Part shown: positions 1-32,214 of the stretch, one piece after another
How positions within the stretch are numbered: position 1 is the stretch's first letter
How the letters are laid out: every line of letters begins with the position of its first letter
Origin: Saprospiraceae bacterium
GTDB taxonomy: Bacteria > Bacteroidota > Bacteroidia > Chitinophagales > Saprospiraceae
Direction of reading: 5' to 3'
Length of the DNA: 35,294 nt
Assembly: GCA_021739645.1 (NCBI GenBank)
Contig: JAIPBL010000066.1
Location: 1-35,294, forward strand
Translations under genes and position numbers: made by a program
Notes under the pieces: generated by a model
The model's input: the letters and a program-made list of their open reading frames with translations, nothing else
Database searches by the model: none
Told to the model about the DNA's origin: nothing

Positions 1-66
1 AGTTGGCAGACAAGAACGTGGTAGCACCACCTGACTGCCAACTCCCCACTGTCGAACTGCCAACTA
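1..66. repeat. Intergenic word repeat, inverted (TTGGCAGT family)
   Basis: The 9-mer AGTTGGCAG at 1-9 occurs as its reverse complement CTGCCAACT at 35-43 and again at 57-65, so alternative hairpins can form just past the stop codon of the amidase gene (which ends at 64 on the minus strand). Bases 31-65 match 25917-25951 on the opposite strand at about 31 of 35 positions. The element may continue beyond the left edge of the window. It could terminate amidase transcription, but no clear T-tract is visible. Confidence 0.6.
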
Positions 67-1038
67 CAAAATGCCGTTCTTTTCAATCTCCAGAATCGCC
101 TCCACGTGGGCATCGGCGATTTTCTGGCGGACGGAATCCTTCATCAGTTCCATCACTTCTATTTTGTTGTTGTAAAAACCGTTTTCGGTCAGGATGGCGG
201 GCATCACCGTCTTTTCCAGCACGTACAGCGGCTTTTCGGCGGTGGATTTTAGGTTACGGTTTTTGAAGCCCGTTTTCAAAATCATGTGTTTCTGGAACAC
301 AGCGGCGAGTTTTTTGCCCTTCGTGCTGTTCTGGGCGTACCAGGTTTCCGAGCCGTTGATGCTGTCTGCTATCCAATCATTGGCGGTGGCAGCAGGGCCA
401 GCGTTGGAGTGGACGGAAACAAAAAGCTTCGGCAAGTCCGATTGTTTCTTGTTTGCCCGGTCCACCCGCTCCTCCAAAAAGCTGCCCACATCGTTGAAGT
501 CTGGCACCACGTCGTAGTATTTTATGCCGTGTTTTTTCAACTCCTTGATGATTTTCTCCACCACGTCCCGGTTGAACTCGTACTCGAAAAAACGGGTCGT
601 TCCGTCGTCGAAGAGTGGGGAACGCTTGCCCGCTTGCAACTTACCGTGGCCATTGTCGAGGCACCACAGGTAGCGAGGTTTTGGCGCAGTGGGGGTGGTT
701 GGGGTGGTCGGTGGCGTGGGGGTTGGCGGTGTAGGGGTCGGCGGAGGTGTCGGCGGGGTCGGTGGGGTCGGTGGAGTAGGCGTCGTGGGTTCTTCGCTGT
801 CCACGGCATTTCCCTTGTCGTCGTCGGCAAATGGGCCAGGCGCATCGGGTATCACCTCAATCACCGGCACGGTGTGGATGCTGTCCGCAGGCACGTCGGA
901 GCTGTCCTCTACCTCGCCGGGCTTCCGGTCGTTCGGGGATTTTGGTTGGGTAGAAGGCTGTGGCGCCGGAGCTGGCGTTGTTTTTTTACCAAAAAGCGAA
1001 GAAAAGAAGTTGGCGATGGCGTCGAAGAAGTTTTTCAT
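64..1038 (-). CDS. N-acetylmuramoyl-L-alanine amidase (Amidase_3 type) with Pro/Thr-rich linker
   Basis: Predicted zinc amidase that cleaves the bond between N-acetylmuramic acid and L-alanine in peptidoglycan. The catalytic domain covers about residues 122-324. It shows the expected zinc ligands and catalytic residues: H131 in LDNGHG, a Glu in the FFEYEFN stretch (152/154), H210 in SVHSNAG and E285 in LTENGFYNN. Residues 84-120 are an almost pure Pro/Thr linker. The first 18 residues look like an amphipathic helix (FFDAIANFFSSLF) rather than a cleavable signal peptide, so export or membrane association is uncertain. The ATG at 1038 is the first in frame. A possible promoter box lies at 1127-1134, leaving a leader of about 80 nt that carries tandem repeats. 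The family is clear; the exact role (cell division, sporulation-like or phage-type lysis) is not. Confidence 0.9.
   Translation of the reverse strand: MKNFFDAIANFFSSLFGKKTTPAPAPQPSTQPKSPNDRKPGEVEDSSDVPADSIHTVPVIEVIPDAPGPFADDDKGNAVDSEEPTTPTPPTPPTPPTPPPTPTPPTPTPPTTPTTPTAPKPRYLWCLDNGHGKLQAGKRSPLFDDGTTRFFEYEFNRDVVEKIIKELKKHGIKYYDVVPDFNDVGSFLEERVDRANKKQSDLPKLFVSVHSNAGPAATANDWIADSINGSETWYAQNSTKGKKLAAVFQKHMILKTGFKNRNLKSTAEKPLYVLEKTVMPAILTENGFYNNKIEVMELMKDSVRQKIADAHVEAILEIEKNGIL
689..790 (-). repeat. Low-complexity Pro/Thr-coding tandem repeat
   Basis: Degenerate GGTGT/GGCGT-rich tract on the plus strand. It encodes alternating Pro-Pro-Thr and Pro-Thr units in the amidase linker (about residues 84-118). 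It is a minisatellite-like coding repeat and may vary in length between strains. Confidence 0.8.
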
Positions 1039-1044
1039 GTTGAA

Positions 1045-1092
1045 TGGTTTGCGGTGAATGGTGAACGGTGATTGGTGAACGGTGATTGGGGG
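1045..1092. repeat. Intergenic word repeat (GGTGAATGGTGAAC family)
   Basis: Tandem variants of a 7-8 nt unit (GGTGAAT, GGTGAAC, GGTGATT) lie immediately upstream of the amidase start at 1038. The block GGTGAACGGTGATTGG is nearly duplicated. If the promoter box at 1127-1134 is used, these repeats sit in the 5' untranslated region. No inverted partner is seen nearby. Confidence 0.7.
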
Positions 1093-1126
1093 CAGTAATG
1101 CGCAGCGGCAATATTTTTTTAAAAGC

Positions 1127-1134
1127 CAAAGCTA
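1127..1134 (-). promoter_or_regulatory. Possible Bacteroidota -7 box for the amidase gene
   Basis: The minus strand reads TAGCTTTG, matching the TAnnTTTG -7 consensus. An ATTG that could act as the -33 element lies about 20 nt further upstream (1155-1158). Transcription would start near 1120, giving a repeat-containing leader of about 80 nt. Confidence 0.4.
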
Positions 1135-1169
1135 ACCCATCAGCCACAATATCCCAATAACTCAATATC

Positions 1170-2366: not shown

Positions 2367-2400
2367 GCTGAAGGATTGAAGGATTGAGGGACTGAAGATT
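2367..2400. repeat. Intergenic word repeat (GAAGGATTGA family)
   Basis: Repeats of GAAGGATTGA, GGATTGAGGGA and CTGAAGATTTGA directly abut the start codon of the PLP enzyme at 2366. They belong to the same class of gap-specific tandem words seen elsewhere in the window. No inverted partner is visible. Confidence 0.55.
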
Positions 2401-2518
2401 TGAATTTGAGGTGCAAAATTGCGCAAGCAAAACCAATTTCAAAGCGGAAAATGAAAAACTGCCACGCTGGTTGCGGGAAAGTTGCGTTATTTTGCAATCT
2501 TTTCCCCGAAAAATAAAC

Positions 2519-2610
2519 GGTTTCAGGTTCGGGGTTTCAGGTTTCAGAAGGGTTTCAGGTTTCAACCAGCCGCCCCTTGAAACCTGAAACTTCTGAAACC
2601 TGAAACCATT
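2519..2610. repeat. Large intergenic inverted repeat built from GGTTTCAG words
   Basis: The left arm 2533-2565 and right arm 2577-2607 are reverse complements along the whole length, apart from a 2-nt bulge of two extra G in the left arm. The loop is 11 nt (2566-2576). Each arm is itself a tandem array of GGTTTCAG/GTTTCAGG units. The element lies between divergent genes, so it is not an ordinary intrinsic terminator. It ends a few bases before the start of the pseudouridine synthase gene. Confidence 0.9.
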
Positions 2611-2622
2611 GAAACCGTGAAT

Positions 2623-3687: not shown

Positions 3688-3691
3688 AGGG

Positions 3692-3805
3692 ATTTACGAT
3701 TTACGATTTTGGATTTACGATTGGGGACGATGCTTCATTCCAAGTCCATCGTAACATCGCAACCCACGGACTCCAATCGTCATTCGTAAATCGTAAATCG
3801 TAAAT
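3692..3805. repeat. Inverted intergenic repeat of ATTTACGAT / ATCGTAAAT words
   Basis: The left arm 3692-3724 and right arm 3773-3805 are reverse complements at about 29 of 33 positions, enclosing a 48-nt loop. Each arm carries about three tandem ATTTACGAT-type units. The right arm includes the first two bases of the acyl-CoA reductase ATG (3804-3806). In a transcript reading through from the pseudouridine synthase gene, the start codon would lie in the stem. Bases 3781-3805 are identical to 30491-30515. Confidence 0.9.
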
Positions 3806-4820
3806 GCATTTAAGCCTTCGCATATCCGCCCTCGCCCGCCTCGGTGAACACCTGTTGCAGCCGGACGACTACCTCGATGCGGTCATCCACCGCACCCATT
3901 ACAACAATAATTGGTTTACGAAGGAAAACCAAGCGTTGGCCATTCGGGCTATTGCGACGGAGTTTTTGGATAAAAACAAGCTGGAAAACTGGGCGGCGGG
4001 CTATCCGATTTCGGACGAGCCGCCGTTGAAAACCGTGGGAATGGTGATGGCCGGAAACCTGCCGCTGGTGGGCTTTCACGACCTTGTCTGCACTTTTGTG
4101 GCGGGGCATCAAGCGAAGATAAAACTATCGGACAAGGACAAGTTTCTGCTGCCGTACCTGCTGCAATTGCTGGAAAAATACGCTCCCGGCACAGGTAGTT
4201 TTTTTGAAATTGCGGAGCAAATAAATGGCGTGGATGCGGTCATCGCCACAGGCAGCAACAACTCGGCTCGCTACTTCGAGACATATTTCGGAAAATACCC
4301 GCACATCATCCGCAAAAACCGCAACGCCGTGGCCGTACTCGACGGCACTGAAACCGAAGACGACCTTCATGCAATCGGCAAGGATGTGTTCCGGTTTTTT
4401 GGTTTGGGCTGCCGCAATGTTTCCAAACTGTATTTGCCGAAAGGCTACCATTTTGCGGCGCTGATGGAACGGCTGCACGACTATCGGGAAATCGCCAACC
4501 ACGGCAAGTACCGCAATAATTTCGACTACAACCTCGCCCTGCTGATGCTGAACCAGGTGCCGTACTTCAACAACGGCTGCATCATCGTGGCGGAAAACCG
4601 GGACATCGCCAGCCGAATCGCTACGTTGCACTATGAATTTTACGAAGATAAAACGGCGCTAGAAGCGGAACTGGCAAGCCGCAGCGAGGAAATCCAGTGC
4701 ATCGTTGCCAAGCCGGAGCTGCTCAGCATACCTACCATCCCCTTCGGAAAATCGCAGGAGCCGGGTCTCACTGACTACCCCGACGGGGTGGATGTGATGG
4801 CGTTTTTAATGGATTGTTGA
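3804..4820 (+). CDS. LuxC-like acyl-CoA reductase
   Basis: Aldehyde-dehydrogenase-superfamily protein resembling the LuxC acyl-CoA reductase family, which reduces fatty acyl-CoA or acyl-enzyme to aldehyde with NADPH. It is 338 aa, shorter than LuxC of luminous bacteria (about 480 aa). Visible features are the MVMAGNLPLVGFHD stretch near 81-94, the ATGSNNSARYFE segment near 148-159, and FGLGCRNVSKL, in which Cys203 is the expected nucleophile. The start ATG at 3804 lies at the very edge of a palindromic repeat; the next methionine (residue 80) is too far in. The gene is convergent with the FG-GAP gene and no luciferase genes are nearby, so a role in lipid or fatty-aldehyde metabolism is likelier. 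The substrate is unknown. Confidence 0.85.
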   Translation: MHLSLRISALARLGEHLLQPDDYLDAVIHRTHYNNNWFTKENQALAIRAIATEFLDKNKLENWAAGYPISDEPPLKTVGMVMAGNLPLVGFHDLVCTFVAGHQAKIKLSDKDKFLLPYLLQLLEKYAPGTGSFFEIAEQINGVDAVIATGSNNSARYFETYFGKYPHIIRKNRNAVAVLDGTETEDDLHAIGKDVFRFFGLGCRNVSKLYLPKGYHFAALMERLHDYREIANHGKYRNNFDYNLALLMLNQVPYFNNGCIIVAENRDIASRIATLHYEFYEDKTALEAELASRSEEIQCIVAKPELLSIPTIPFGKSQEPGLTDYPDGVDVMAFLMDC

Positions 4821-4879
4821 ATTGCTATATTGTTGGATTGTTGCTCGTATGGCGTTTAACAATCCAACAATATAACAAT
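4821..4879. terminator. Bidirectional terminator-like hairpin of ATTGTTGGATTGTT words
   Basis: Arms 4821-4842 and 4858-4879 are reverse complements at 21 of 22 positions with a 15-nt loop, lying between two convergent genes. The word GGATTGTTG also occurs at 4811-4819, inside the last codons of the acyl-CoA reductase gene. There is no strong T-tract, so efficiency as an intrinsic terminator is uncertain. Confidence 0.7.
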
Positions 4880-4882
4880 CCG

Positions 4883-7177
4883 TCACTTCTTCACAAAGCG
4901 CTTCGTCACCTGCATTCCACCTACCTGCAATTCCAAGAAATAGAGTCCTGAACTCAGGTTGGAAACATCCATTTTTTTGCTCGCAACGTCCAAACTGCCG
5001 CTGCCAACGAACTGGCCTAGCGCACTGAAAATGCGATATCTACAGACCGGATTGCCTTCCGTTTTGATATTTACAAAAAGGAAATCGCCCGTGGGATTTG
5101 GATAAATGTCAACGCCGACCGTGGGCTTCACCTCGTGCGCCGCAACGCTACCATCCATGATGATGGGTGAGCTGTACAGCGCCAAGCCGCCTCGATGGTT
5201 GCCGACGAGGCAATCAATAAAATCATCGCCATTGAGGTCGCCGAAGCTGGGTCGGGTGATTTTGCCCTCCCTCATGCCAGCACCAAGCTGTGCATCAATC
5301 AGTTCGAAACGCCCACCAAGGTCGCCTTGGAAAATTGGCCTATCATCAATGCTGTCAGGATTGATTTTGTAATATTTCAAGTAGCCCAGTTCTGTGCCCG
5401 TCACGAGGAACATGGTGCTGTCCATGGTTTCAATAACGACTGGCGCACTGTAGCCTGTCGTGTAGCCCGGCTGCTGGGTGCTGATGGCACCAAAACTCCA
5501 GTTGTTGGGTGCTTCATCGGGGTTTGAATGGAAGTCGGGATTACCGACCGTGCCGATATTGGGCATGTAATTGATGGTGCCTTTATACTCGCCAATCACA
5601 AGGTCGCCAAGCCCATCGTGGTTGATGTCATGGACGCAAGGCGTGGAAAACTGACCGACCGAGATGCCTTTCCAATACGGGATAATGGGCGCAAAACTGA
5701 GCGGATTGCCCGGCCCTGCGAGGTTTTGACCATAAAAAAGCCGGCCTTGGCGCTCGCCCACCACGAGGTCCAAGTCGCCATCGCCGTCCACGTCGCCAAA
5801 GGTGGGCGCATAGGCGTAAGGTTGTGAATTGGGGTCAACGAACTGGCTAAAGTTCAGCCAATCGCTGTTCACGAGTTCAAAGGCTGGCTCGGTAAGCGTC
5901 CCCACGTTTTTATACAAAAACAAGCGGGAGTCCTTGACGAAATTGGGCTTGTAGGCAGACTCGTTGCCCACCACAAAATCGAGCAAACCATCGGCGTTGT
6001 AGTCAATAAATGCTGGGTTTGCACCCGTGCCGAGGTCAATGGTTTCATCCTCCAAAAAGCGGTCTTTCTGAAAGTTAAAAACAGGAAACTCGTTGCTTTG
6101 GGTGTTTTTGTAAAACCAAACAACGTTTTCATCGAACCCGCCCTGCGAGATGTTTGGCGATGTAATCAGGTCTTTCAAGCCGTCATTGTCCACATCGAGG
6201 TGAAAAGCCCCCGGGAAATCGATGATGTCCGTCGGAGCACCATAGCTCGGGTACATGGTGTCCTGCTCACAAATCCAAGCAGCCTGTGCCGACCCACAGT
6301 TTTTTCCACGGATTAGGTGGGGATAAATCAGGTCGCCGTAAAGCACCTCCAGGTCACCATCGTTGTCTTCGTCCAATGTGCAGAGCGTAGCGCCGCCGTG
6401 CACCCCGCCCCGCTCCTCAATCTCGCCGTCTGGATCTTGGAAAAAAACGCACATGTTTGGGTCGGTGCTCAGCAGCATGGACTGCGCAAAGGCCGGAATG
6501 TAGAACTTGCCCCAGCAGTCGTCCATAATGGTAAAAATCAGCGTATCGTCCGTGAACCCTGACTCCAGCGCAATATTTTTGTAGAAATAGACCTTAGAAC
6601 CTGTGACCCCAAGTGCCAGTACATCAAGGTCGCCGTCCCCATCTACGTCGTCAATGGCGGGATAATCCCCAGCATTGACGGGAAGCTGGGTAGGTGCGCC
6701 TCCAGCTTCTATCAAAAGCACATCAAAAAGCCAAGGGAAAGAGACCCGATTGAATACAAGATGGTTGTTTTCGTAACTGCCCGTATAGACTTTCAGGCCA
6801 GCAATGCCTTCGTCCAGTGAACTCACAAAAAGGTCCATCACACCATCCCGGTTGTAATCACGGAGTAGGGTAAAAAAGCGGCATGACGGGAAGTTGGCGG
6901 CGTATTGCGGTGCAAACTGGTATTTCGTTTCGCCGGGGCCACCCACGTTGAGGAAGCAAACGTGCTTGTCACCGTTGCGGTCGAAAGCGTAGAGGTCCTG
7001 TTTGCCATCATTGTTGAAGTCAACAGCCGACCACTGTGGGGCATTGAAGCCGCCTACCCAGGGGTTGGCAAGTGGAGTGTCGTTTTCGGTAACGGGGGCA
7101 TAGATTCGGTTGAAAACCTGGGCATTGGCGAAGCCAAGCAAGGTGACAAAAAAGGCTAGGAGCGATAATTTTTTCAT
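4883..7177 (-). CDS. Secreted FG-GAP/VCBS repeat protein with type IX secretion sorting domain
   Basis: Large exported protein of 764 aa. It has a signal peptide (MKKLSLLAFFVTLLGFANA, cleavage before Q). At least nine calcium-loop FG-GAP/VCBS-like repeats follow, such as DFNNDGKQDL, DYNRDGVMDL, DVDGDGDLDV, DYNADGLLDFVVG, DINHDGLGDLVIG and DLNGDDFIDC. This pattern predicts a beta-propeller that binds metal ions. The last 75 or so residues form a type A sorting domain (VDIYPNPTGDFLFV ... LSSGLYFLEL ... KRFVKK), which targets the protein to the type IX system for secretion or surface attachment. The start at 7177 is supported by the signal peptide and by a promoter box at 7213-7220; an upstream extension lacks both. 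The ligand is unknown; adhesion or extracellular matrix binding is a reasonable guess. Confidence 0.92.
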   Translation of the reverse strand: MKKLSLLAFFVTLLGFANAQVFNRIYAPVTENDTPLANPWVGGFNAPQWSAVDFNNDGKQDLYAFDRNGDKHVCFLNVGGPGETKYQFAPQYAANFPSCRFFTLLRDYNRDGVMDLFVSSLDEGIAGLKVYTGSYENNHLVFNRVSFPWLFDVLLIEAGGAPTQLPVNAGDYPAIDDVDGDGDLDVLALGVTGSKVYFYKNIALESGFTDDTLIFTIMDDCWGKFYIPAFAQSMLLSTDPNMCVFFQDPDGEIEERGGVHGGATLCTLDEDNDGDLEVLYGDLIYPHLIRGKNCGSAQAAWICEQDTMYPSYGAPTDIIDFPGAFHLDVDNDGLKDLITSPNISQGGFDENVVWFYKNTQSNEFPVFNFQKDRFLEDETIDLGTGANPAFIDYNADGLLDFVVGNESAYKPNFVKDSRLFLYKNVGTLTEPAFELVNSDWLNFSQFVDPNSQPYAYAPTFGDVDGDGDLDLVVGERQGRLFYGQNLAGPGNPLSFAPIIPYWKGISVGQFSTPCVHDINHDGLGDLVIGEYKGTINYMPNIGTVGNPDFHSNPDEAPNNWSFGAISTQQPGYTTGYSAPVVIETMDSTMFLVTGTELGYLKYYKINPDSIDDRPIFQGDLGGRFELIDAQLGAGMREGKITRPSFGDLNGDDFIDCLVGNHRGGLALYSSPIIMDGSVAAHEVKPTVGVDIYPNPTGDFLFVNIKTEGNPVCRYRIFSALGQFVGSGSLDVASKKMDVSNLSSGLYFLELQVGGMQVTKRFVKK

Positions 7178-7212
7178 AAAAAAAGATTTGTGGGCTTGAT
7201 GGTTTGCTAGCG

Positions 7213-7220: not shown

Positions 7221-7292
7221 CCGTTTTGATGGGGATAAATGGTGTCCGAATAGCAAGTATGTTGGGCGGGTTGCAAACAAGGAAAAGTCCCA

Positions 7293-7353
7293 ATTCCACA
7301 AAATGGCGTGAATTCATCGAACACATTCCACAAAATGGCGTGAATTTATCGAA
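7293..7353. repeat. 29-bp direct repeat, two copies
   Basis: Copies at 7293-7321 and 7325-7353 are identical except for one base and are separated by 3 nt (period 32). They lie between the yggS stop (7360) and the promoter of the FG-GAP gene. There are only two units and no further spacers, so this is not a CRISPR. Confidence 0.9.
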
Positions 7354-7359
7354 TAGCCC

Positions 7360-8057: not shown

Positions 8058-8205
8058 AATGCAAAACCAAGATGCTGCGGGCAGTTTAGTTTTCAGGCCA
8101 TTAAATTCTATTTTGCAGCCATATTTTGGCAATCTGAAACAAGCGGGCATTGCCTCCCGTTTTTCAATGACTATCCTTGACCAACCTCCCAAACCATTTT
8201 ATCAA

Positions 8206-9822
8206 ATGCAAAAAAAAGACAACTACCTCCTCCGAGAGGAAATTTTCCGCCACCTAGATGGCATCGTGACTGCCCCGACTGCTTTTGCCCTGCACGAAAA
8301 AGGCGTGCTGGCCCATTTGCTCCAAGAAAAAGAGGCCGACCTGCAAGATTTGACCGCCAAATTCAAGGCCAACGAGGGCTACCTCAACGTGGCGCTGCGG
8401 GTGCTCTGCTCGCAAGGCTGGCTCACGCAACAACTTGACAACCAAAAAGATACGATTCGCTACGCAACGACGGAGACGAGCGAAACGGCTTTTGCACTCG
8501 TGCCGCTTTACGCCGAAGTGGTTCATCTGCTCAAACTCAGCGAGAAATACCACAACCGCCGCTTCGAAGTGGAGCCGTTCCGGGTGCTCAAGTCCATCTT
8601 CGAAAAATACCGCAACGACTACGGCCTCCACCTTTCCGAAGATGAAAAAATCCGTGCCGTGCAGCACCAGGTTTTGAAGCACATCGAGGGCATTTTGGTG
8701 GGGCCAACGGTGGTGCATTTGGGCATGGGCGGCATGTTTCACAAGTACTTCATGGAGGCTTCGTTCCGGCCGGACGAGTACCACAAAGACCCGGAAAGCT
8801 TCAAGGAACTGCTCGATATGTTTGCGCACCTCGGATGGTTTTTGGAAAAAAACGAGACGTACCGTTTCACGGAAAAGGGCTTGTTTTTGGCACGGCGGGC
8901 CAGTGCCTACGGTGTGACGGTTTCGTACATTCCGATGCTCCGCAAGCTGGACGAGCTGATTTTTGGCAACCCGAACCTGCTGCGGGACATCCCCGAAGGT
9001 GCGCCGGAGCTGCACGTGGACCGGGAAATGAACGTCTGGGGCAGCGGTGGCGCTCATGCTGCCTATTTCAAAAAAGTGGACGAAGTCATCATCGGGCTGT
9101 TCAACCGGCCCATTGCGGAGCAACCAAAAGGCATCCTCGACATGGGCTGCGGCAACGGGGCGTTCCTCAAGCACATCTACGAAGTCATCGAACAGCGGAC
9201 GCTGCGGGGCGAGATGCTGGCCGAGAACCCGCTCTTCCTCGTCGGGGCCGACTACAACAAGGCGGCGCTGCGGGTGACCCGCAACAACTTGATTCAGGCG
9301 GACATCTGGGCGAAAATCGTCTTTGGCGACATCGGCAGGCCGGAACTGCTGGCCACCGACCTGCTGGATGACTACGGCATCCACCTCGGCGACCTGCTGA
9401 ACGTGCGCACCTTCCTCGACCACAACCGGATTTGGTCGCAGCCGTCCCAAATTACGCCGGGCAGGGTGAGCGAGTCCACCGGCGCTTTTGCGCATCGGGG
9501 CCAGCGGATTTCCAACAACCTCGTGGAGGACAACCTGGCCGAGCATTTCCGTAAATGGACGCCCTACGTGGGCAAGTTCGGGCTGCTGGCCATCGAGCTG
9601 CACACGATTGACCCGGTGCTTGCTGCGCAAAACATCGGCAAAACCGCCGTGACTGCCTACGATGCCACGCACGGTTTCAGCGACCAGTACATCGTCGAAA
9701 TCGAGGTGTTTCACAAGGTGGCGAAGGAGGCGGGATTGAACGTGGTGGAGCAGTATTTCAGCAAATTCCCGAACTCAGATTTGGCGACGGTGAGCATCAA
9801 TTTGCTTGCGAGCGGGGGGTGA
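8206..9822 (+). CDS. SAM-dependent methyltransferase with two N-terminal winged-helix-like units
   Basis: Predicted class I methyltransferase of about 538 aa. The SAM-binding motif ILDMGCGNG lies at residues 310-318, with an acidic VGADYN motif after it. The N-terminal half appears to hold two related units. The first (about 5-70) reads REEIFRHLDGIVTAPTAFAL and ends in VLCSQGWL. The second (about 160-230) reads HQVLKHIEGILVGPTVVHLG and ends in MFAHLGWFL, followed by a wing-like YRFTEKGLFL. This resembles a duplicated O-methyltransferase-type winged helix. The overall plan recalls the AprA-type methyltransferases of polyketide pathways, but that link is only from memory. The start could also be 8167; the ATG at 8059 lies upstream of the predicted transcription start. 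The substrate is unknown and no biosynthetic cluster surrounds it. Confidence 0.8.
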   Translation: MQKKDNYLLREEIFRHLDGIVTAPTAFALHEKGVLAHLLQEKEADLQDLTAKFKANEGYLNVALRVLCSQGWLTQQLDNQKDTIRYATTETSETAFALVPLYAEVVHLLKLSEKYHNRRFEVEPFRVLKSIFEKYRNDYGLHLSEDEKIRAVQHQVLKHIEGILVGPTVVHLGMGGMFHKYFMEASFRPDEYHKDPESFKELLDMFAHLGWFLEKNETYRFTEKGLFLARRASAYGVTVSYIPMLRKLDELIFGNPNLLRDIPEGAPELHVDREMNVWGSGGAHAAYFKKVDEVIIGLFNRPIAEQPKGILDMGCGNGAFLKHIYEVIEQRTLRGEMLAENPLFLVGADYNKAALRVTRNNLIQADIWAKIVFGDIGRPELLATDLLDDYGIHLGDLLNVRTFLDHNRIWSQPSQITPGRVSESTGAFAHRGQRISNNLVEDNLAEHFRKWTPYVGKFGLLAIELHTIDPVLAAQNIGKTAVTAYDATHGFSDQYIVEIEVFHKVAKEAGLNVVEQYFSKFPNSDLATVSINLLASGG

Positions 9823-9825
9823 AAA

Positions 9826-9855
9826 ATTGGGTATTGGGTATTGGGTATTGGGTAG
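9826..9855. repeat. Intergenic word repeat (AATTGGGTATTGGG family)
   Basis: Three to four tandem copies of ATTGGGT/GTATTGG (7-nt period) follow directly after the methyltransferase stop codon. The same word, with its inverted partner, is used at 28873-28935. Confidence 0.75.
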
Positions 9856-9889
9856 CGTTGACTTCACGGCTGTTGGAAGTTTTTAATTT

Positions 9890-10093
9890 ATGCGAATTAG
9901 GGGTTGAAATGCGGCTAAACGTGCCGTTAGGCACGAAATATTGGTAGCAATATGCCCAAACATCGGTCTGCGTGCCGTTAGGTACGCTACTTCTCGTGGG
10001 AATTGTTGCGTACCTACGGCACGCAGACCCATTTTCATTCGATTTCTACCGACATTTTGTGCCTAACGGCACATTTCAATCCCTAATTCGCAT
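9890..10093. mobile_element. Nested palindromic MITE/REP-like element
   Basis: About 204 bp with several layers of dyad symmetry. The outer arms 9890-9911 and 10072-10093 are reverse complements with one mismatch. The inner motif GTGCCGTTAGGCAC at 9921-9934 pairs with GTGCCTAACGGCAC at 10059-10072, each also being partly self-complementary. The symmetry extends imperfectly for about 20 bases further in. A central hairpin pairs 9965-9987 with 10008-10029 (one bulged T) around a 20-nt loop. No coding capacity is present. It may be a non-autonomous element mobilised by a REP-associated or IS transposase elsewhere. It fills most of the 350-nt gap between the methyltransferase and DUF1080 genes. 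Confidence 0.8.
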
Positions 10094-10141
10094 AATTTCT
10101 AAATTTCCAATTTCCAATTAGCGTCAATTGCCTCTCGCTGT

Positions 10142-12919: not shown

Positions 12920-12953
12920 CAATCGTAAATCCAAAATCGTCAATCGTCAATCA
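12920..12953. repeat. Intergenic word repeat (ATCGTAAAT / ATCGTCAAT family)
   Basis: AATCGTAAATCC is followed by AATCGTCAATCGTCAATCA. The last unit contains the TCA that is the (reverse-complement) stop codon of the alkyltransferase gene at 12951-12953. The word family is shared with 3692-3805 and 30491-30535. Confidence 0.7.
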
Positions 12954-13445
12954 AAACAAGCTCCCCTGCTCCCCGTAGCTCATCGGGTTTTCCAATTCGA
13001 GCAGTTTCCGCTTCATGTCGAGGCCGTAAAAATAGCCTTGCAGGTCGCCGTCCTTGGCAATGACCCGGTGGCATGGGATGACGATAGCAATGGGATTGGA
13101 ACGGTTGGCGAGGCCCACGGCCCGCACGGCTTCGGGGTTATTGATTTGCTTCGCAATGGCCGAGTAGCTGGTGGTGTGGGCATAAGGGATTTTCAGTAGC
13201 TGCCGCCAAACACTTTGGTTAAAAGCCGTGCCCGCCGAGAAGTCCAACAGCAGGTCGAACTCGGTGCGCTGGCGATAGAAATACTCGCTCAACTGCCGAG
13301 CCGCTTCCAGTACATGCTCTGGCCCATCGTGCCAATCTTCCGGCGGAATTGCCTGGTTTTGAAGCAGTTGCACCCCAGTGATGGCGTGGTCGTTTGCCTC
13401 GATTTTGAAGCAGCCAAATGGAGAATGGTAGTAGAAGGTGTGCAT
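12951..13445 (-). CDS. ogt: Methylated-DNA--protein-cysteine S-methyltransferase
   Basis: Suicide DNA-repair enzyme that moves the alkyl group from O6-alkylguanine to its own cysteine. It has 164 aa, typical for Ogt. The active-site motif IVIPCHRVI is present with Cys125. FNQSVWRQLLKIPYAHTTSYSAIAKQI forms the helix-turn-helix that binds DNA, and AVGLANRSNPIAI holds the conserved arginine-finger region. The ATG at 13445 gives a full-length protein. A 24-bp hairpin lies between it and the upstream gene on the same strand. It is not fused to AlkA or Ada domains. Confidence 0.95.
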   Translation of the reverse strand: MHTFYYHSPFGCFKIEANDHAITGVQLLQNQAIPPEDWHDGPEHVLEAARQLSEYFYRQRTEFDLLLDFSAGTAFNQSVWRQLLKIPYAHTTSYSAIAKQINNPEAVRAVGLANRSNPIAIVIPCHRVIAKDGDLQGYFYGLDMKRKLLELENPMSYGEQGSLF

Positions 13446-20228: not shown

Positions 20229-21272
20229 ATGAAAAAGCAAATGTTCAAATTGATCGCCAGCGTGGCCATGCTCATAAGTTTCGCCATGCTATTTACAAGG
20301 TGCGAATCCGATGCAAACGAAATCGTACCGATTGACAGTATGAAAGCAACGGCCACCGTCAACGACGTAGCTGCTGCAACTACGGTCGCTTATGATGCAG
20401 CGCAGGTTTGCGACTGTCTGCTGACCAATTTCCCTTATGAAGCATTGACGGCAACGGAAACAGCTGCCTTGCTCTTTATGCGGGAAGAGGAAAAATTGGC
20501 TCGAGACGTATATACCGGCCTAAATGAAAAATGGGATGTCAGGATATTCTCCAACATCGCCAAATCAGAACAGCGCCACATGGATGCCGTTCTTTGCCTC
20601 ATTGACAAATATGGTTTGGGCGACCCAGTTGGCGAGAATGCAGCAGGTGTTTTCGTCAACGCTGACCTGCAACTCCTCTACAACAACCTGATGGATCAAG
20701 GCTCGACTTCCTTGGCGGCAGCCCTCAAAGTAGGTGCGACCATCGAAGACCTCGACATCTCCGACCTGCTTGCAAGGATGCCCGACATGGGAAATGAAGA
20801 CATTGTTGCTGTCTTTACAGAACTGACGAAAGGCTCCCGCAACCACCTGCGCGCCTTTAACCGCAACTTGGTGAATGTGGGAGAAGTGTACGTACCGCAA
20901 TACATCAACCAAGCACTTTTCGATGAAATCATCAGCTCACCCAAAGAAACCGGCGGTGCCATCTGTGGCATTTGCTTGGGCACAGGTAGTGGAAATGGGC
21001 CCGGGAACGGAACGGGCACTTGCGACGGCACTGGCCCTCACGGGAACAATGGCGGTAACGGCACCGGAACTTGCCCTAACGGAAATACTGGTGGCGGCGG
21101 TAACGGCGACGGTACAGGAACTTGCCCTAACGGAAATACCGGTGGTGGCAACGGCGGAAACGGTAATGGCGGCGGCAATGGAGGCGGCGGCAATGGAGGC
21201 GGCGGTAACGGCGGCGGTGGCAACGGCGGCGGTGGCAACGGCGGCGGTGGCAACGGCGGCGGTGGCAACTAA
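20229..21272 (+). CDS. DUF2202 ferritin-like lipoprotein with Gly/Asn-rich repeat tail
   Basis: Lipoprotein of 347 aa. Cys25 in LFTRC is the predicted lipid-attachment residue. Residues about 70-235 form a DUF2202 domain, an all-helical ferritin-like fold: LLFMREEEKLARDVYTGL, SEQRHMDAVLCLIDKYGL and KGSRNHLRAFNRNL. The Glu and His residues in these helices could bind metal. The tail (about 245-347) is low complexity: two GTCPNGNTGGG units, then GGGGN repeats encoded by six 15-nt tandem units. The function of DUF2202 is not established. The gene is followed by a strong terminator, an ECF sigma factor and a membrane protein. Confidence 0.88.
   Translation: MKKQMFKLIASVAMLISFAMLFTRCESDANEIVPIDSMKATATVNDVAAATTVAYDAAQVCDCLLTNFPYEALTATETAALLFMREEEKLARDVYTGLNEKWDVRIFSNIAKSEQRHMDAVLCLIDKYGLGDPVGENAAGVFVNADLQLLYNNLMDQGSTSLAAALKVGATIEDLDISDLLARMPDMGNEDIVAVFTELTKGSRNHLRAFNRNLVNVGEVYVPQYINQALFDEIISSPKETGGAICGICLGTGSGNGPGNGTGTCDGTGPHGNNGGNGTGTCPNGNTGGGGNGDGTGTCPNGNTGGGNGGNGNGGGNGGGGNGGGGNGGGGNGGGGNGGGGNGGGGN
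21168..21269 (+). repeat. 15-nt coding tandem repeat (GGGGN units)
   Basis: Six consecutive 15-nt units related to GGCGGCGGTGGCAAC cover 21180-21269. A 12-nt shortened unit precedes them. The last four units are identical, pointing to recent expansion by slippage. The array encodes the extreme C-terminus of the DUF2202 protein, and the stop follows directly. Confidence 0.95.
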
Positions 21273-25161: not shown

Positions 25162-25235
25162 AAAAAAAAAGTACCAACTGAAAGGGGCATGGCTATATAA
25201 AACAGCAGTGCCCCTTCGCTTTTCATGGCCCCGTG

Positions 25236-25243
25236 TATCTTTG
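25236..25243 (+). promoter_or_regulatory. Bacteroidota -7 box for ccmB
   Basis: TATCTTTG is a consensus -7 box and ends 6 nt before the ATG at 25250. The transcript would be leaderless or nearly so if this box is used. Confidence 0.45.
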
Positions 25244-25249
25244 CCGCCG

Positions 25250-25909
25250 ATGAATATTTTCACTCAGATATTTTACCTGCTCCGAAAGGAAATCACGCTG
25301 GAATGGCGGCAGAAATATGCCCTCAGCGGTATTTTGCTTTACGTGCTTAGTACTGTTTTCATCGTGTACATCTCGTTCCAAAACATCGGCCCACAGGTTT
25401 GGAACGTGCTTTTTTGGGTCATCATGCTCTTCGCTTCGGTGAATGCGGTGATGAAAAGTTTCGTGCAGGAGAGCGGTTATCGGCAACTTTATTACTTCCA
25501 ATTGCTGCACCCCATCGCTATTTTGCTGTCAAAAATGATTTATAACTCGCTGCTGCTGCTCCTGCTGGGCGGGTTGACTTTTGTAGCTTTGGCCTTCATC
25601 GCTGGCAATCCCGTGCAGGACGCTGGCATTTTCGCACTGACCTTGTTCCTCGGCAGCACGGGGTTTTCGATTACGTTCACCTTCGTGTCGGCCATTGCCG
25701 CCAAGGCGGACAACAGCAGCACCCTGATGGCCATCCTGAGTTTTCCGGTGGTCATCCCGATTTTGCTGCTGCTGGTCAACCTCTCGGCGCACAGCATTGG
25801 CCTACTCGGCAGCACGGATATTGCCGACAAAACCATGCTACTCGGCGCCGTGGACTTGATTCTGGTGGCGATGGGGCTGGTTTTGTTTCCGTTTTTGTGG
25901 CGGGATTGA
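25250..25909 (+). CDS. ccmB: Haem exporter membrane subunit CcmB
   Basis: Integral membrane protein of the CcmABCD complex that handles haem for cytochrome c maturation. It has 219 aa and six likely transmembrane helices, as usual for CcmB. Recognisable segments are FYLLRKEITLEWRQKYAL at the N-terminus, the helix pair VWNVLFWVIMLFASVNAV, SYRQLYYFQ-type residues in the first loop (SGYRQLYYFQLLHP), and the last helix LILVAMGLVLFPFLWRD. The ATG at 25250 gives the proper N-terminus. The ATPase gene ccmA is not in the window. The gap to ccmC holds word-like repeats. Confidence 0.93.
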   Translation: MNIFTQIFYLLRKEITLEWRQKYALSGILLYVLSTVFIVYISFQNIGPQVWNVLFWVIMLFASVNAVMKSFVQESGYRQLYYFQLLHPIAILLSKMIYNSLLLLLLGGLTFVALAFIAGNPVQDAGIFALTLFLGSTGFSITFTFVSAIAAKADNSSTLMAILSFPVVIPILLLLVNLSAHSIGLLGSTDIADKTMLLGAVDLILVAMGLVLFPFLWRD

Positions 25910-25916
25910 GCAAAGA

Positions 25917-26008
25917 AGTTGGCAGTTCGTCAGTGGGCAGTGGGCAGTCAAGGGCTGCTAAATTGGCAGAACCCAAAAACAATTCAACAATAAAGCAATC
26001 CAACAATC
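25917..26008. repeat. Intergenic word repeats (TTGGCAGT and CAATCCAACAAT families)
   Basis: The ccmB-ccmC gap has two word blocks. GCAGTGGGCAGTGGGCAGT units occupy 25917-25951 and are a 31/35 match to bases 31-65 on the opposite strand. AATTCAACAATAAAGCAATC then CAACAATC runs up to the ccmC start. The latter shares CAATCCAACAAT with 4860-4871. No inverted partner is seen inside the gap. Confidence 0.7.
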
Positions 26009-27061
26009 ATGAAAAAATACTGGTGGAAAATACTCGGCGTCCTCATCCTGCTCTACACTTTTTTCATGGGGCTGCTGACGCCGCTGAAAACGGGCATCTC
26101 GGAGGCCAGTCCGATGAGCCTCCATGCAGGTCGGAGCGAGACCGTGACCGTAGTGGGCTACAACTCCTTTTTTACGAAGGAAAAAGAAAAACTGCGTGCC
26201 TGGCTGAAACTGCCGAACGGCAAAGCACTGGCTGCCAAACGAATTGACGTGGTGGACGACCGGGTGGCCAAGCTCACCTTCGACCTGCCATCCTACCTGC
26301 CCATTGACACGAAAGTGAAAGATTTCACCCTGCTGATTGACAGCCCGGTGGATGGGGCGAGCGTACTGCCCGGCGGTATTGCAGTGACACAGGACACGGT
26401 GAATCTGGCTCTCGCCGATGCACTTTGGCCAAATGCCGAGATTTCACAACTCCATGAGAAAGAGACGATTACGTTTCCGTTCCGCAATATTTTGGGCGAA
26501 ACCATCCGTAATACCTACTACCATGTGCCGCTTTGGATGGCCATGTTTATCATCCTGACGGGAGGCATGGTCTTCAGTGTTATTTACCTCATAAAAAACG
26601 ACGCCGATGCAGACCGTAAGGCAATGGCGCTTTCCAACGTAGGGCTGCTGCTGGGCATCCTTGGCATCATCACCGGGGCAATTTGGGCGAAGTACACTTG
26701 GGGCAAATTCTGGAGCTGGGACGTAAAACAGAACATGACGGCCATCGCCCTGCTGATTTATGGCGCCTATTTCGTGCTTCGGGCCTCGTTTGAAGACCCG
26801 GAGAAAAAAGCACGAGTCGGGGCGGTCTTCAATATTTTCGCCTACGCCAGTTTGGTGCCGCTACTCTACATCATCCCGAAACTCACAGATAGCCTGCATC
26901 CCGGCGCTGGCGGCAACATTGCCTTCGGCAGCGAAGACCTGGACAGCACCATGCGAATGGTGTTCTACCCGGCCATCATCGGCTGGACACTCATCGGGCT
27001 TTGGATTGGCCAAATCATCCTACGCACCACACGGCTTCGGGACAGGTTGATGGAGGTCTGA
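26009..27061 (+). CDS. ccmC: CcmC/CcsA-family haem-handling protein with extra N-terminal domain
   Basis: Membrane protein of the haem-handling family that presents haem for cytochrome c assembly. It has 350 aa, longer than E. coli CcmC (about 245) because an extracytoplasmic beta-rich domain (about 30-150) follows the first helix. The core begins near 172 with the conserved His in YYHVPLW. The tryptophan-rich signature is WGKFWSWDVKQN (231-242), and a second conserved His is H297 in DSLHPG. These are the expected haem ligands. The extra domain could handle haem or the CcmE-like chaperone. The 3' end forms one arm of a terminator-like inverted repeat that includes the stop codon. Confidence 0.9.
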   Translation: MKKYWWKILGVLILLYTFFMGLLTPLKTGISEASPMSLHAGRSETVTVVGYNSFFTKEKEKLRAWLKLPNGKALAAKRIDVVDDRVAKLTFDLPSYLPIDTKVKDFTLLIDSPVDGASVLPGGIAVTQDTVNLALADALWPNAEISQLHEKETITFPFRNILGETIRNTYYHVPLWMAMFIILTGGMVFSVIYLIKNDADADRKAMALSNVGLLLGILGIITGAIWAKYTWGKFWSWDVKQNMTAIALLIYGAYFVLRASFEDPEKKARVGAVFNIFAYASLVPLLYIIPKLTDSLHPGAGGNIAFGSEDLDSTMRMVFYPAIIGWTLIGLWIGQIILRTTRLRDRLMEV

Positions 27062-27129
27062 GGTATGAGGTATTGAAGTATGAGGTCTAGGGGTTTGGGA
27101 AACATACCTCCATACCTCAGACCTTTTTA
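27054..27129. terminator. Terminator-like inverted repeat of GAGGTATGAGGT words after ccmC
   Basis: The left arm 27054-27073 starts inside the last codons and stop of ccmC. It pairs with 27104-27124 (one bulged base) and is followed by TTTTTATTT. The left arm also contains tandem GAGGTATGAGGTATT words. This fits an intrinsic terminator on the plus strand, so ccmD may need its own promoter. Confidence 0.75.
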
Positions 27130-27203
27130 TTTGCCCGTGCAGAAAATTTCACAGACCTTAGCGCCCGTTTTAAGGACAGGATAAAAAGTTAAATATCAAA
27201 ACC

Positions 27204-28860: not shown

Positions 28861-28877
28861 TGGTGGAGTTCGAAATT

Positions 28878-28938
28878 GGGTAATGGGTTTGGGAATTGGG
28901 TATTTTATACAATACCTAATTCCCAATTCCTACTACCC
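28878..28938. terminator. Bidirectional terminator-like repeat of AATTGGGTATT words
   Basis: The left arm 28878-28904 and right arm 28911-28938 are largely complementary. The loop-proximal 14 bp match at 13 of 14, with a 6-nt loop. The right arm reaches the first base of the yqhA-like stop codon (28938-28940). Convergent genes flank it. The word is shared with 9826-9855. Confidence 0.7.
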
Positions 28939-29384: not shown

Positions 29385-29526
29385 GAAAAATAATTTTAGC
29401 GGTTTGCAAGGTAGGGTTTTTGGAAAAAGAATCGTCTTTGATTAAACGGCACTGACCAAAAAGTGTCAATAGCTTCACCAGAAAAAATCAGCTGCTATGT
29501 AAGCAAGAATACTCGACAGTTTTTAC

Positions 29527-29538
29527 CGGTGCGCACCG
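29527..29538. promoter_or_regulatory. Perfect 12-bp palindrome upstream of a lipoprotein gene
   Basis: CGGTGCGCACCG is a perfect palindrome about 50 nt before the ATG at 29590. It could be an operator. No TAnnTTTG box is found near it, so its role is open. Confidence 0.35.
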
Positions 29539-29589
29539 AAAGGCTGCTCCAAATTGAAGCATCATTTTTAACAAAAAAAATCTACTGAA

Positions 29590-30420
29590 ATGAAGATGAC
29601 CAAATTGATTTTTAGCTCCGCCCTTGTGATGGGCTTTGTTTTCACCAACTGCACAAAAGACGAATCAACGACCGACCAAGCAGCCACCCAACAGATGGTT
29701 GCGGCGAGCGAGGACAACTCCACCGCTGAAGACCTCTACCAAAACGTGGACGACCAAGTGGACGTAGTTGTCGAAGCCCGTGGCGGTGGCGGCGGCGCTT
29801 GCCCCACTGTGACGGTTGACCCAAGCTGGGACATGTTCCCTCGGACGGTCACCATTGATTTCGGCACAGATGGCTGCACAGGCCCGGATGGCCGCATCCG
29901 AAAGGGCCAGATTGTCGTGGTACAAACGGCTGAATGGTGGGTACCAGATGCCGAGCGCACTACCACTTTCATTGGATTCTCCGTTGACGGCGCACAACTC
30001 GAAGGCACAGCCACCCTCGTAAACCAGGGCTACGATGCCAACGGCAACATCACCCTCACTCGGACGGTAGCCGGTGCCAAAATTACTTTTCCAAACGATG
30101 ATGTGACCACTTGGGAAACGCAGCAGCAGCTCACCCAAATCGAAGGCGGAGGCACGCCGCTCATTTTACTCGACAATGTTTTTGAATTCACGTCCATTTC
30201 CAGCGGCATCAACCGCAACGGCCAGGCATTCACGGTCGAAACCATCACCCCGCTGGTGAAGCACAAACTTTGTCCGTGGCTCGTATCTGGCATCATCCAA
30301 CTGGACGTGGCAGGCAAGACGCTGCAGCTTGATTACGGCAATGGCAACTGCGACAAATTCGGTACTTTGACCTTGCCAAATGGCGCTTCGCTAATCATCG
30401 AAGTACGCCGGACTTGGTAA
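29590..30420 (+). CDS. Lipoprotein of unknown function
   Basis: A 276-aa lipoprotein; Cys21 in VFTNC is the predicted acylated residue. A stretch rich in Asp/Glu/Gln follows, then a GGGG turn and a beta-rich domain from about 75 to the end. Repeated phrases include VTIDFGTDGCTGPDGRIRKG and LQLDYGNGNCDKFGTLTLPNG, which look like two related halves with paired Cys-containing turns (DGC...G and NGNC). I recall this type from Bacteroidota but no function. The second Met (29596) is an alternative start. It ends just before a strong terminator and is convergent with glnS. Confidence 0.8.
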   Translation: MKMTKLIFSSALVMGFVFTNCTKDESTTDQAATQQMVAASEDNSTAEDLYQNVDDQVDVVVEARGGGGGACPTVTVDPSWDMFPRTVTIDFGTDGCTGPDGRIRKGQIVVVQTAEWWVPDAERTTTFIGFSVDGAQLEGTATLVNQGYDANGNITLTRTVAGAKITFPNDDVTTWETQQQLTQIEGGGTPLILLDNVFEFTSISSGINRNGQAFTVETITPLVKHKLCPWLVSGIIQLDVAGKTLQLDYGNGNCDKFGTLTLPNGASLIIEVRRTW

Positions 30421-30456
30421 CATGAAACCAATTTTTCTTCAAAATTTCCAAAAAAG

Positions 30457-30490
30457 AAAAGCGTGGTCGAGCAATCGGCCACGCTTTTTT
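30457..30490 (+). terminator. Intrinsic terminator after the lipoprotein gene
   Basis: Arms 30457-30470 and 30475-30488 pair over 14 bp (one G:T) around a GCAA tetraloop, ending in a run of T. The A-run on the left also makes it able to act in the reverse direction for glnS. Confidence 0.9.
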
Positions 30491-30535
30491 CATTCGTAAA
30501 TCGTAAATCGTAAATCGTCCAATCGTAAATCGCCC
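30491..30535. repeat. Intergenic word repeat (ATCGTAAAT family) beside glnS
   Basis: Tandem ATTCGTAAATCGTAAATCG units plus a further AATCGTAAATCG end directly at the glnS stop codon (30535-30537). Bases 30491-30515 are identical to 3781-3805. No inverted partner is present here; the adjacent hairpin is a separate, conventional terminator. Confidence 0.85.
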
Positions 30536-32214
30536 TACCCCTTCGCCTTCGACCAGGCATCTCGCAGCGTCACGGTGCGGTTGATGACCAGTTTTTCGGT
30601 CGTCGAGTCGGTGTCCACGGTGAAATAGCCGAGACGCAGGAACTGGTATTTATCGCCGGGGGTTCCCGACGCCAGACTCGGCTCCAACATGGCTTTCGTC
30701 ACTACTTTCAACGAATCAGGATTAATGAGTTCGAGGAAGTCACGCTCATCGTTGGCGGGGTCTTCAACCGTAAAAAGGCGGTCGTAGAGCCGCACTTCAG
30801 CCGGAATGGCATGAGGGGCGCTCACCCAGTGGATGGTCGTCTTCGGCTTGAGGCCGCTGGTATCGCTGCCGCTTCTGGATTCCGGAAAATAGGTGCAGCG
30901 CAGTTCTGTGGGCTTGCCGTCTGCATCCTTCACTACCTCGTCGCATTGGATGATGTAGGCGCTTTTCAACCTGGCCAACGTGCCGGGTGAGAGGCGGAAA
31001 AATTTCGGTGGCGGGTTTTCCATGAAATCATCCTGTTCTATCCAAAGTTCCCGGCCAAATGGCATTTGACGAGTCCCGCCGTTCGGGTCCTCGGGGTTGT
31101 TCTCGGTTTCGAGGAACTCCGTTTTTCCTTCTGGATAATTCGTGATGACCACTTTCAGTGGGTCGAGCACGGCCATTGCCCGCAGGGCGATTTTGTTCAA
31201 ATCCTCCCGCACGAAGAACTCCATCAGGCTCAGGTCCACGAGGTTTTCCCGCTTCGCAATGCCGATGCGCTTGGCCCATTCCCGAATGGCTGTTGCCGTG
31301 TACCCCCTGCGCCGCATAGCGGAAATGGTGGGCATGCGGGGGTCGTCCCATCCATTCACATGGCCTTCGTTCACCAGTTTCAGCAGTTTTCTTTTCGAAA
31401 CAATGGTGTAGCTCAGGTTGCGCCGAGCGAACTCATATTGCTTCGAAGGGAAAATGCCCAGCTTCTCAATGCACCAGTCATAAATCTCCCGGTGCGGCAC
31501 GAATTCCAGCGTACAAATCGAGTGTGTGATATGCTCGATGCTGTCGCTTTGGCCGTGCGCCATGTCGTACATCGGGTAGATGCACCAGTCGTCGCCGGTG
31601 CGGTGGTGGTGTGCGAACTTGATGCGGTACAGCAGCGGGTCCCGCATAATCATGTTTGGGGAGGTCATGTCGGCCTTCGCACGCAGGGTTTTTGTGCCTT
31701 CGGCAAACTCGCCCTTGCGCATCCGCTCGAACAGGTCGAGGTTTTCTTCCACGCTGCGGTCACGGTACGGGCTGGGTTTACCCGGCTCGGTCGGCGTGCC
31801 TTTCAGCGCTGCGATTTCCTCGGCCGTGCTGTCATCCACGTAAGCGAAGCCCTTTTTGATGAGGTCAACGGCGAAGTCGTACAGCTTTGGAAAGTAATCG
31901 GATGCATAGAAGATATTGGCTGGCTCAAAGCCCAGCCAGCGCACGTCGTTGATGATGCTGTCCACATACTCCGTCTCCTCCGTCACCGGGTTGGTATCGT
32001 CGAAGCGGAGGTTGCACTTGCCGCCATACTTCACCGCCAGCCCGAAGTTTAGGCAGATGCTGGTGGCATGTCCCACGTGCAGGTAGCCGTTTGGTTCCGG
32101 CGGGAAGCGGGTATGCACCCGGCCTCCGTTTTTGCCAGCGGCGATGTCTTGCTCGATGATTTCTTCGAGGAAATTGAGGGACTGGGTTTCTTCTTTGATG
32201 TTGTCGGTTGTCAT
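30535..32214 (-). CDS. glnS: Glutaminyl-tRNA synthetase
   Basis: Charges tRNA-Gln with glutamine. The 559-aa length fits bacterial GlnRS. The class I HIGH-type motif is NGYLHVGHA (within residues 40-50, HVGH in place of HIGH), preceded by TRFPPEPNG. The KMSKS equivalent is VSKRK at about 270, in [13 protein letters not shown]. The C-terminal anticodon-binding beta barrels are complete ([15 protein letters not shown]-type end). The gene lies 1 nt behind the unknown gene 32216-32962, so the two are probably co-transcribed. Confidence 0.95.

Follow-up and report, generated by a model that had tools for sequence, protein, structure and literature searches.

Heptamer word arrays in the gene gaps of a Saprospiraceae genus mostly point their G-rich strand away from gene borders

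We examined a contig of a Saprospiraceae bacterium (JAIPBL010000066.1 of assembly GCA_021739645.1; all 35,294 nucleotides, hereafter the window) whose gaps between genes contain arrays of short tandem words. The genome (G000) has 6.16 Mb, and the window is its contig C70. An earlier note, made from the letters of the window, had listed such arrays, and Tandem Repeats Finder and direct reading placed them within a few bases of where the note had put them. The repeated units are mostly seven bases long and less often eight (for instance, ATTTACG, GGTTTCA, GAGGTAT, ATTGGGT, GGATTGTT, and TGAAGGAT). Genes were called with a codon model trained on the long frames of each genome; no annotation was used, and start codons are approximate.

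At the left end of the window, TTGGCAGT words and their facing copies (1-66, by direct reading) lie past the stop codon of the minus-strand gene 64-1038, and a GGTGAAT/GGTGAAC array (1041-1092, plus strand) is directly upstream of its start, with the G-rich strand outward. Another array, of TGAAGGAT (2369-2404, plus strand), lies before the start codon of the minus-strand gene 1170-2366, and other words are found at several of the orthologous start edges. At 2519-2621, a GGTTTCAG array (2519-2555) and its reverse complement (2578-2621) form a hairpin whose unit variants are mirrored. An ATTTACG array (3691-3722) follows a stop codon, and its reverse complement (3775-3805) reaches the next start codon. 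The convergent gap at 4810-4881 holds two facing arrays, one of GGATTGTT, which runs over the stop codon of 3804-4820, and one of the reverse complement; several orthologues of this gap have other words. Four copies of ATTGGGT (9826-9854, plus strand) lie just past the stop codon of 8059-9822, and the opposite side of that gap has an array of a related word in reverse orientation, AATTTCC (10102-10119, minus strand).

Farther along, an ATTTACG/ATTGACG-type array (12920-12952, minus strand) points outward from the stop codon of 12951-13445. A TTGGCAGT/CAGTGGG array (25917-25951, plus strand) lies past the stop codon of 25250-25909, at an edge that has other words in several congeners. Directly before the start codon of 26009-27061 is a AACAATCC array (25976-26008, minus strand), whose word is retained in five congeners, and the stop codon of this gene is included in a GAGGTAT array that is followed by its reverse complement and then by TTTTTATTT (27053-27124). 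A convergent gap contains a AATTGGGT array and its reverse complement (28876-28938), with a close homologue in G013. Finally, a TCGTAAA array (30494-30532, minus strand), which is ATTTACG read outward from the stop codon of 30535-32214, lies beside the classical terminator of the facing gene.

The arrays are real and beyond chance. Exact tandems, with a minimum length of two units and one base, are present in 7 of the 24 gaps in the window, while 30 dinucleotide shuffles gave a mean of 0.3 and a maximum of 2. In a 0.83 Mb sample of G000, 67 of 523 gaps have exact tandems (shuffles: mean 10.1, maximum 15). With a stricter score, 19 of the 243 gaps in a 432-kb sample contained arrays, 25 in all; shuffles gave 0.45, and coding segments matched in length gave 3.05. 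Thus shuffled sequence, the control that the earlier note had proposed, yields far fewer arrays than the real gaps do. The note's statement that arrays fill many gaps is overstated: exact arrays occupy fewer than a third of the gaps in the window and about an eighth of the sampled gaps.

To describe the periods, we counted exact tandems of at least 2p+3 bases, where p is the period, in eight genomes of the genus (including G000). The intergenic count peaks at period 7 in seven of the eight, G000 among them, and in G008 periods 7 and 8 tie at 3. The intergenic arrays of G000 are of period 7 (36 arrays), 8 (15), 4 (4), 5 (4), 6 (3), and 9 (1). Period-7 arrays number 48 in 22 kb of intergenic DNA in G002 and 26 in 32 kb in G004. 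They are concentrated between genes: G000 has 36 in 127 kb of intergenic DNA versus 20 in 701 kb of coding DNA. Beyond the genus we used 119 stretches of other genomes, which are a non-random sample because they were chosen for carrying ATTTACG, with cruder gene calls. Among the matches listed, and excluding ATTTACG itself, the arrays outside called frames are of period 7 (110), 8 (23), 6 (5), and 5 (3), and those inside frames of period 7 (36) and 6 (16).

The arrays had also been said to abut stop and start codons. The enrichment at gene edges is modest: of the 221 arrays of period 7 or 8, 31 overlap an edge and 51 lie within 10 nt of one, versus 28.9 and 31.3 with uniform placement. The overlapping arrays are on the stop side in 24 cases and on the start side in 7.

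The arrays have a common polarity in this genus: the G-rich strand points outward from the nearest gene border, at both start and stop codons and with or without hairpins. We scored the period 7 or 8 arrays with G/C skew, leaving out gaps of under 20 or over 1,500 bases and the 20 arrays (of 221) with weak G skew. Across the eight genomes, 169 arrays point outward and 32 inward. The outward to inward ratio is 98:16 at stop borders, 71:16 at start borders, and 35:5 at convergent stop borders. With one vote per gap, 108 of 130 gaps are outward (p = 8e-15), and at stop borders in gaps that lack an array hairpin, 41 of 46 gaps are outward. In a further set of stretches (five congeners, additional parts of G002, and two genomes of the family), 25 of 27 gaps are outward; none of these stretches entered the first count, although we had already looked at some G012 gaps, and five loci come from other contigs or other parts of G002, a genome counted before. 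ATTTACG has no G/C skew, so we tallied it apart. In the G000 sample there are 18 ATTTACG arrays, of which 3 are inside called genes, and among the 15 placed, 14 point outward and 1 inward. In other genomes, the matches listed include 165 ATTTACG arrays, with 24 inside frames and 7 far from genes.

Some of the start-border effect could be due to background composition: in gaps without arrays, the outward G skew is 0.024 at stop borders and 0.197 at start borders. Beyond the genus, there is clear agreement at start borders only, where the crude gene calls give 56:8 (outward to inward) for ATTTACG and 25:9 for skewed words, among the matches listed. Polar start edges, both in the genus and for ATTTACG across phyla, are what we would expect if the words were binding sites for regulators that bind RNA or DNA, fixed in orientation beside start codons. 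MacGregor described a like orientation for TAACTGA in Beggiatoaceae (PMC4679880). Repeats at start codons in one orientation, as for TAACTGA, are indeed present here. However, stop edges are at least as polar in the genus, and more than a dozen word classes within one genome, with other words at the same gene in congeners, ill suit one site per protein. We consider regulator sites rather improbable.

The earlier note had a reverse-complement copy facing the array in six or more gaps. Six stretches of the window do have facing words, and the predicted RNA folds of five of them are far below those of shuffles: 2519-2621 (z -8.4), 3691-3805 (z -5.1), 4810-4881 (z -7.6), 27053-27124 (z -3.4), and 28876-28938 (z -7.2). 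The sixth, 1-66, is hardly below (z -1.7). To count hairpins more broadly, we considered gaps of 25-500 bases and required a stem score of at least 10. The 5' arm has more G than C in 54 of 56 array hairpins and the reverse in 2; the corresponding numbers for the 321 other hairpins are 191 and 96.

These hairpins could be functional elements at the ends of transcripts, selected as terminators or as stabilisers of mRNA 3' ends, with words that drift while the arms continue to pair. Array hairpins are commonest in convergent gaps (14/159), intermediate in co-directional gaps (38/711), and rarest in divergent gaps (4/194 versus 52/870 elsewhere, p = 0.03), and the stable folds in the window also suit this explanation, as does a classical terminator at one gap in the congener G007 (by eye). 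But the array hairpins do not have the G+C-rich stem and following T-run of intrinsic terminators, except, by eye, at 27053-27130. A T-run follows just 4 of the 56, compared to 48 of the 321 other hairpins (p = 0.14, not significant), and their 5' arms are poorer in G+C (0.37 versus 0.455). Also, classical terminators coexist with arrays in one gap, at 30421-30534 and in some orthologues (by eye); the polarity is present in gaps without array hairpins; and in the gap before 26009, one arm has been replaced by an unpaired word (by eye). Transcription-end elements seem unlikely as the explanation.

Some other ideas were considered. A known RNA family was set aside, as Rfam has no matches in the window at the gathering threshold. 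We thought of Chi-like guard sites too, and set them aside. We also considered circularisation of mRNA by equal words at both ends of a gene, and set it aside: the words at the two ends differ for 3804-4820 and for 26009-27061 (by eye, two genes).

Within the hairpins, the variants of the repeated units are partly mirrored. When we permuted the units of the 3' arm, the mean stem score was 15.4, versus 19.1 observed, and 23 of 54 hairpins were at the 5% level or less, in a set biased by selection for strong stems. In these 23, one arm looks like a copy of the other, as expected from template switching. In one divergent gap, the pair in G000 is perfect over 24 nt, and in G013, a close relative, the arms are unequal, though built from the same word family (by eye).

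The words at orthologous gaps often differ. We compared gaps by four protein searches (by eye) and by synteny; the synteny comparison gave 95 pairs, from the 44 of 512 gaps for which there was sequence on both sides, with a looser array score, so that some of the "arrays" in it are weak. Both sides have arrays in 36 pairs, only G000 in 17, only the relative in 10, and neither in 32. Where both sides have arrays, the word is different in 26, the same in 6, and near in 4. This is the change between relatives that the earlier note had asked about, and the opposite outcome, one conserved classical terminator, did not appear in the gaps compared, though G007 has one at one gap (by eye).

That gap lies between a pseudouridine synthase gene and 3804. 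It contains ATTTACG arrays in G000, G008, G013, and G012, ATTTATG-type words in G003, GAGGTAT in G006, and the classical terminator in G007 (by eye). At the start border of a Cys/Met enzyme gene, the words are C-rich and differ among several congeners: CAATCCTT in G000 and G003, CAACAATT in G013, CCAGAATC in G006, and AATCCG-type words in G005, G008, and G011. G002 has TTCCTCA-type arrays farther upstream, G012 has short traces only, and G007 and G009 have none. In the gap before 26009, six genomes (G000, G003, G005, G008, G012, and G013) have the right-hand word in common. The left-hand word is another one in G000 and G008, and G012 lacks it.

Could the arrays be small mobile elements, similar to REPINs or miniature inverted-repeat transposable elements (MITEs), that are moved by a Y1 transposase or the like? 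Y1_Tnp matches are present in 12 of the 14 genomes of the genus, including G000, and some phrases recur at unlinked gaps. In G000 the gap before 26009 measures 99 nt, compared to about 27 nt in G007, which has no array there, and in the 10 pairs with an array in the relative only, the relative has the longer gap (medians 90.5 versus 69). On the other hand, the 17 pairs with an array in G000 only show no longer gap in G000 (medians 124 versus 136), so gap lengths speak both ways on insertion. REP, REPIN, or MITE sequences have one consensus, but the words here differ between gaps and between congeners, and we noticed no constant ends, though we made no systematic search. Y1_Tnp counts (2 in G002, 1 in G004, 9 in G006, 8 in G009) show no visible relation to array density, which is highest in G002; this is by eye, in eight genomes, and for Y1 only. 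We set aside Y1 mobility on this comparison by eye, and we think mobile elements very improbable.

Three other repeats lie in the window. A nested palindromic element of about 230 bp, resembling a MITE, occurs twice in the sample (9875-10110 of the window and about 2085-2310 of locus L258). It has GTGCCGTTAGGCAC cores, flanked by ATGCGAATTAGGGGTTGAAATG and its near reverse complement, and in the window it sits between two word arrays. A 32-bp direct repeat, ATTCCACAAAATGGCGTGAATTCATCGAACAC, is present at 7293-7353 in two nearly identical copies, upstream of the minus-strand gene 4883-7177. A coding repeat rich in glycine and asparagine (21047-21269) lies at the end of the protein encoded by 20229-21272.

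Contrary to the earlier note, it is not the case that each gap has its own word. Within the window, ATTTACG-type words are in three gaps (at 3691, 12920, and 30494), and TTGGCAGT, ATTGTTGG, and AATTGGG types are in two gaps each. ATTTACGATTTACGAT is dispersed across many contigs of G000, with 51 matches (overlapping ones counted) and none for the reversed control; it is found in 8 of 13 congeners and in 11 of the 60 genomes searched, G000 included. The phrase ATTTTGGATTTACG recurs on five contigs of G000, at unlinked gaps (by eye). The sample from one genome contains more than a dozen word classes, some of them perhaps by chance. Within the phylum, 11 of 296 genomes contain an ATTTACG triple (reversed control: 1) and 3 of 296 a GAGGTAT triple (reversed control: 1), with G000 in both counts. 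The 16 matches to the reversed GAGGTAT control all fall in G347 among the genomes of the phylum, which hints that other words are amplified in other genomes.

The exact 21-base triple of ATTTACG is found in at least 119 stretches of the GTDB collection. Among the matches listed, record titles include Bacteroidetes, Verrucomicrobia, Chloroflexi, Armatimonadetes, Acidobacteria, a cyanobacterium, and others; many are metagenome bins, and some contigs may be misplaced. In Akkermansia bins (L091, L100, L152, L175, and L188, with variants in L104, L119, and L155), a dispersed repeat opens with GCAATTC and an ATTTACG array, often followed by a G+C-rich, hairpin-like stretch, so that heptamer arrays are joined to a REP-like repeat (by eye).

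As to how arrays are made, the differences between words at orthologous gaps, the phrase at unlinked gaps, and the mirrored arms fit template switching and slippage, which is the active copying that the earlier note had suggested. Its other suggestion, a sequence-directed enzyme or RNA system, gained no support from the enzymes we sought. We found one RVT_1 match in G000, which by eye belongs to a diversity-generating retroelement, although distant reverse transcriptases could escape this model; Ku has no match in any of the 14 genomes, G000 included. We set aside both a reverse-transcriptase writer and Ku end joining. The probable retroelement (locus L303; contig C51 of G000, about 39.7-43.4 kb) is beside a Y1 transposase-like gene and includes a reverse transcriptase frame of 410 amino acids, an Avd-like protein, and a possible variable protein with RGGSWNNNPENCRAANRNRNN (by eye).

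These searches bear on the idea that broken DNA ends in the gaps are extended on the 3' strand by a telomerase-like or foldback polymerase, which adds G-rich heptads, and are then joined. The geometry is like that of fused telomeres, with the G-rich strand outward from both borders and arrays that face each other, and a bacterial reverse transcriptase that writes tandem repeats has been reported (DRT10; PMC12632851, a preprint). But with the RVT_1 model we did not find a reverse transcriptase of that kind (a repeat-template RNA was not sought), and Ku has no match in the 14 genomes. Furthermore, this idea does not predict single arrays near one border, and single-base differences between words (ATTTACG and ATTTATG) are unlike the output of a fixed template. 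We give it very little credence.

We think that these are heptamer repeats of a known kind that are probably rewritten by slippage and template switching while one polarity is kept, and we hold this reading with about as much confidence as doubt. Replication slippage would lengthen a word, with gain and loss of units. Template switching, or fold-back copying, would write the reverse complement across the gap and re-match the two arms. Together these would keep overwriting older arrays, with the result that sister species can come to differ in the word at a given gap. Genes would tolerate arrays mainly in gaps and at the extreme ends of reading frames. The arrays that survive have their G-rich strand away from the border, giving a C/A-rich leader before the start codon and a G/U-rich trailer after the stop codon, and the inverted pairs form stable RNA hairpins, with a possible part in ending or insulating transcripts. 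The arrays, their period of seven, the polarity in the genus, the word differences at orthologous gaps, and, in part, the mirrored arms are observed; the copying mechanism and any role of RNA are what we infer from them.

Several observations weigh against this reading. We saw no mutation directly. Simple slippage would not obviously favour a period of seven over four to six. Slippage and template switching leave unaccounted for the period, the sharing of ATTTACG between phyla, and the stop-border polarity of unpaired arrays; a triple spread across many phyla is not expected from purely local copying. By a strict word test in the eight genomes, an inverted partner is present in just 32 of 137 array-bearing gaps (null 13/137); a further direct copy is present in 57 of 137 (null 9/137). 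In the mirror test, with its biased set, 31 of 54 hairpins miss the 5% level. Within-strand switching, as described in PMC8794818, derives G-C over C-G and U-A over A-U pairs in stems, and the predicted U-A over A-U is not seen here: T/A skew is absent from the 5' arms (0.016), so the wobble explanation in that paper fits G and C only. As for polarity, array-bearing gaps with the exact arrays masked still have an outward G skew (0.176 at stop and 0.247 at start borders), so part of the polarity may be due to gap composition or to degenerate copies. Outside the genus, polarity at stop borders is weak or absent (35:35 for ATTTACG and 36:24 for skewed words, with crude calls and among the matches listed). 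In M. aeruginosa, six sets of TAACTGA repeats are forward and eight reverse relative to the start codon (PMC4679880). And G019 has no array in 40 kb.

A bolder reading is a general law of polarity, in which an unrecognised replication or repair reaction works in strokes of about seven bases, and puts G-rich words on 3' strands directed away from gene borders, thereby building, mirroring, and overwriting gaps in many phyla. We think such a law quite improbable. The pattern is relevant to the question of why repeats of seven letters abound in bacterial gaps. From the polarity, the differences between orthologous words, and the partly mirrored arms, one can derive tests of which polymerase or repair pathway is responsible for the arrays, and of whether their direction is set by transcripts or by DNA ends. 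A caution is that the rewriting of arrays in such gaps may be too fast for them to be interpreted as conserved regulatory sites.

It remains to compare the arrays to known systems. Repeats of this type are also known by the name STRR, which comes with cyanobacterial work behind it. Heptamer arrays as a class have been published (PMC4679880, PMC4692102, PMC6344855), and the SPADE survey states that the function of heptameric repeats is unclear (PMC6344855). Relative to these, the new part is the polarity; a word-based search of the open literature found no report of polarity at both gene borders, or of word replacement, in this group.

Two other comparisons concern mechanisms. Template switching has been described as both a maker and a mender of hairpins (PMC8794818). 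Quasipalindrome or template-switch mutation creates and re-matches inverted arms, as would have happened here, and the G-rich 5' arms fit; in the parts of that paper covered, tandem-word arrays at gene borders are undescribed, and the mechanism leaves unpaired arrays and the period of seven unaccounted for. DRT10 makes short tandem DNA repeats from an RNA template (PMC12632851). However, the system studied has a 9-nt motif and does not concern chromosomal arrays, and we saw no such enzyme here with RVT_1.

TAACTGA direct repeats are found in Beggiatoaceae, Cyanobacteria, and some Bacteroidetes, and have been proposed to be binding sites in Beggiatoaceae (PMC4679880). They share with our arrays a heptamer unit and a place upstream of start codons, and in Beggiatoaceae they mostly have one orientation, with a C/A-rich sense strand; in F. 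litoralis, one set is reversed and lies just past a stop codon. The difference is that there is one word there and many here, and that paired hairpins occur here.

A further likeness is to the heptameric simple sequence repeats GGGAATC of Xanthomonas and GGGGA(C/T)T of Nostoc (PMC4692102). As in those genomes and in the SPADE survey, the units here are of seven bases, mostly intergenic, and dispersed across the genome. Two Xanthomonas genomes have 70 and 75 convergent pairs of GGGAATC arrays, and the arrays are nearer to the gene at their 5' side (28 nt on average, versus 160 nt). Converging pairs that lie close to the 5'-side gene amount to the outward polarity found here; for Nostoc, few inverted pairs are reported. 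In contrast to Xanthomonas and Nostoc, the genomes of this genus have many words each, with other words at orthologous gaps and with period 8 as well, and the polarity has been tallied at start and stop borders and for all gene orientations.

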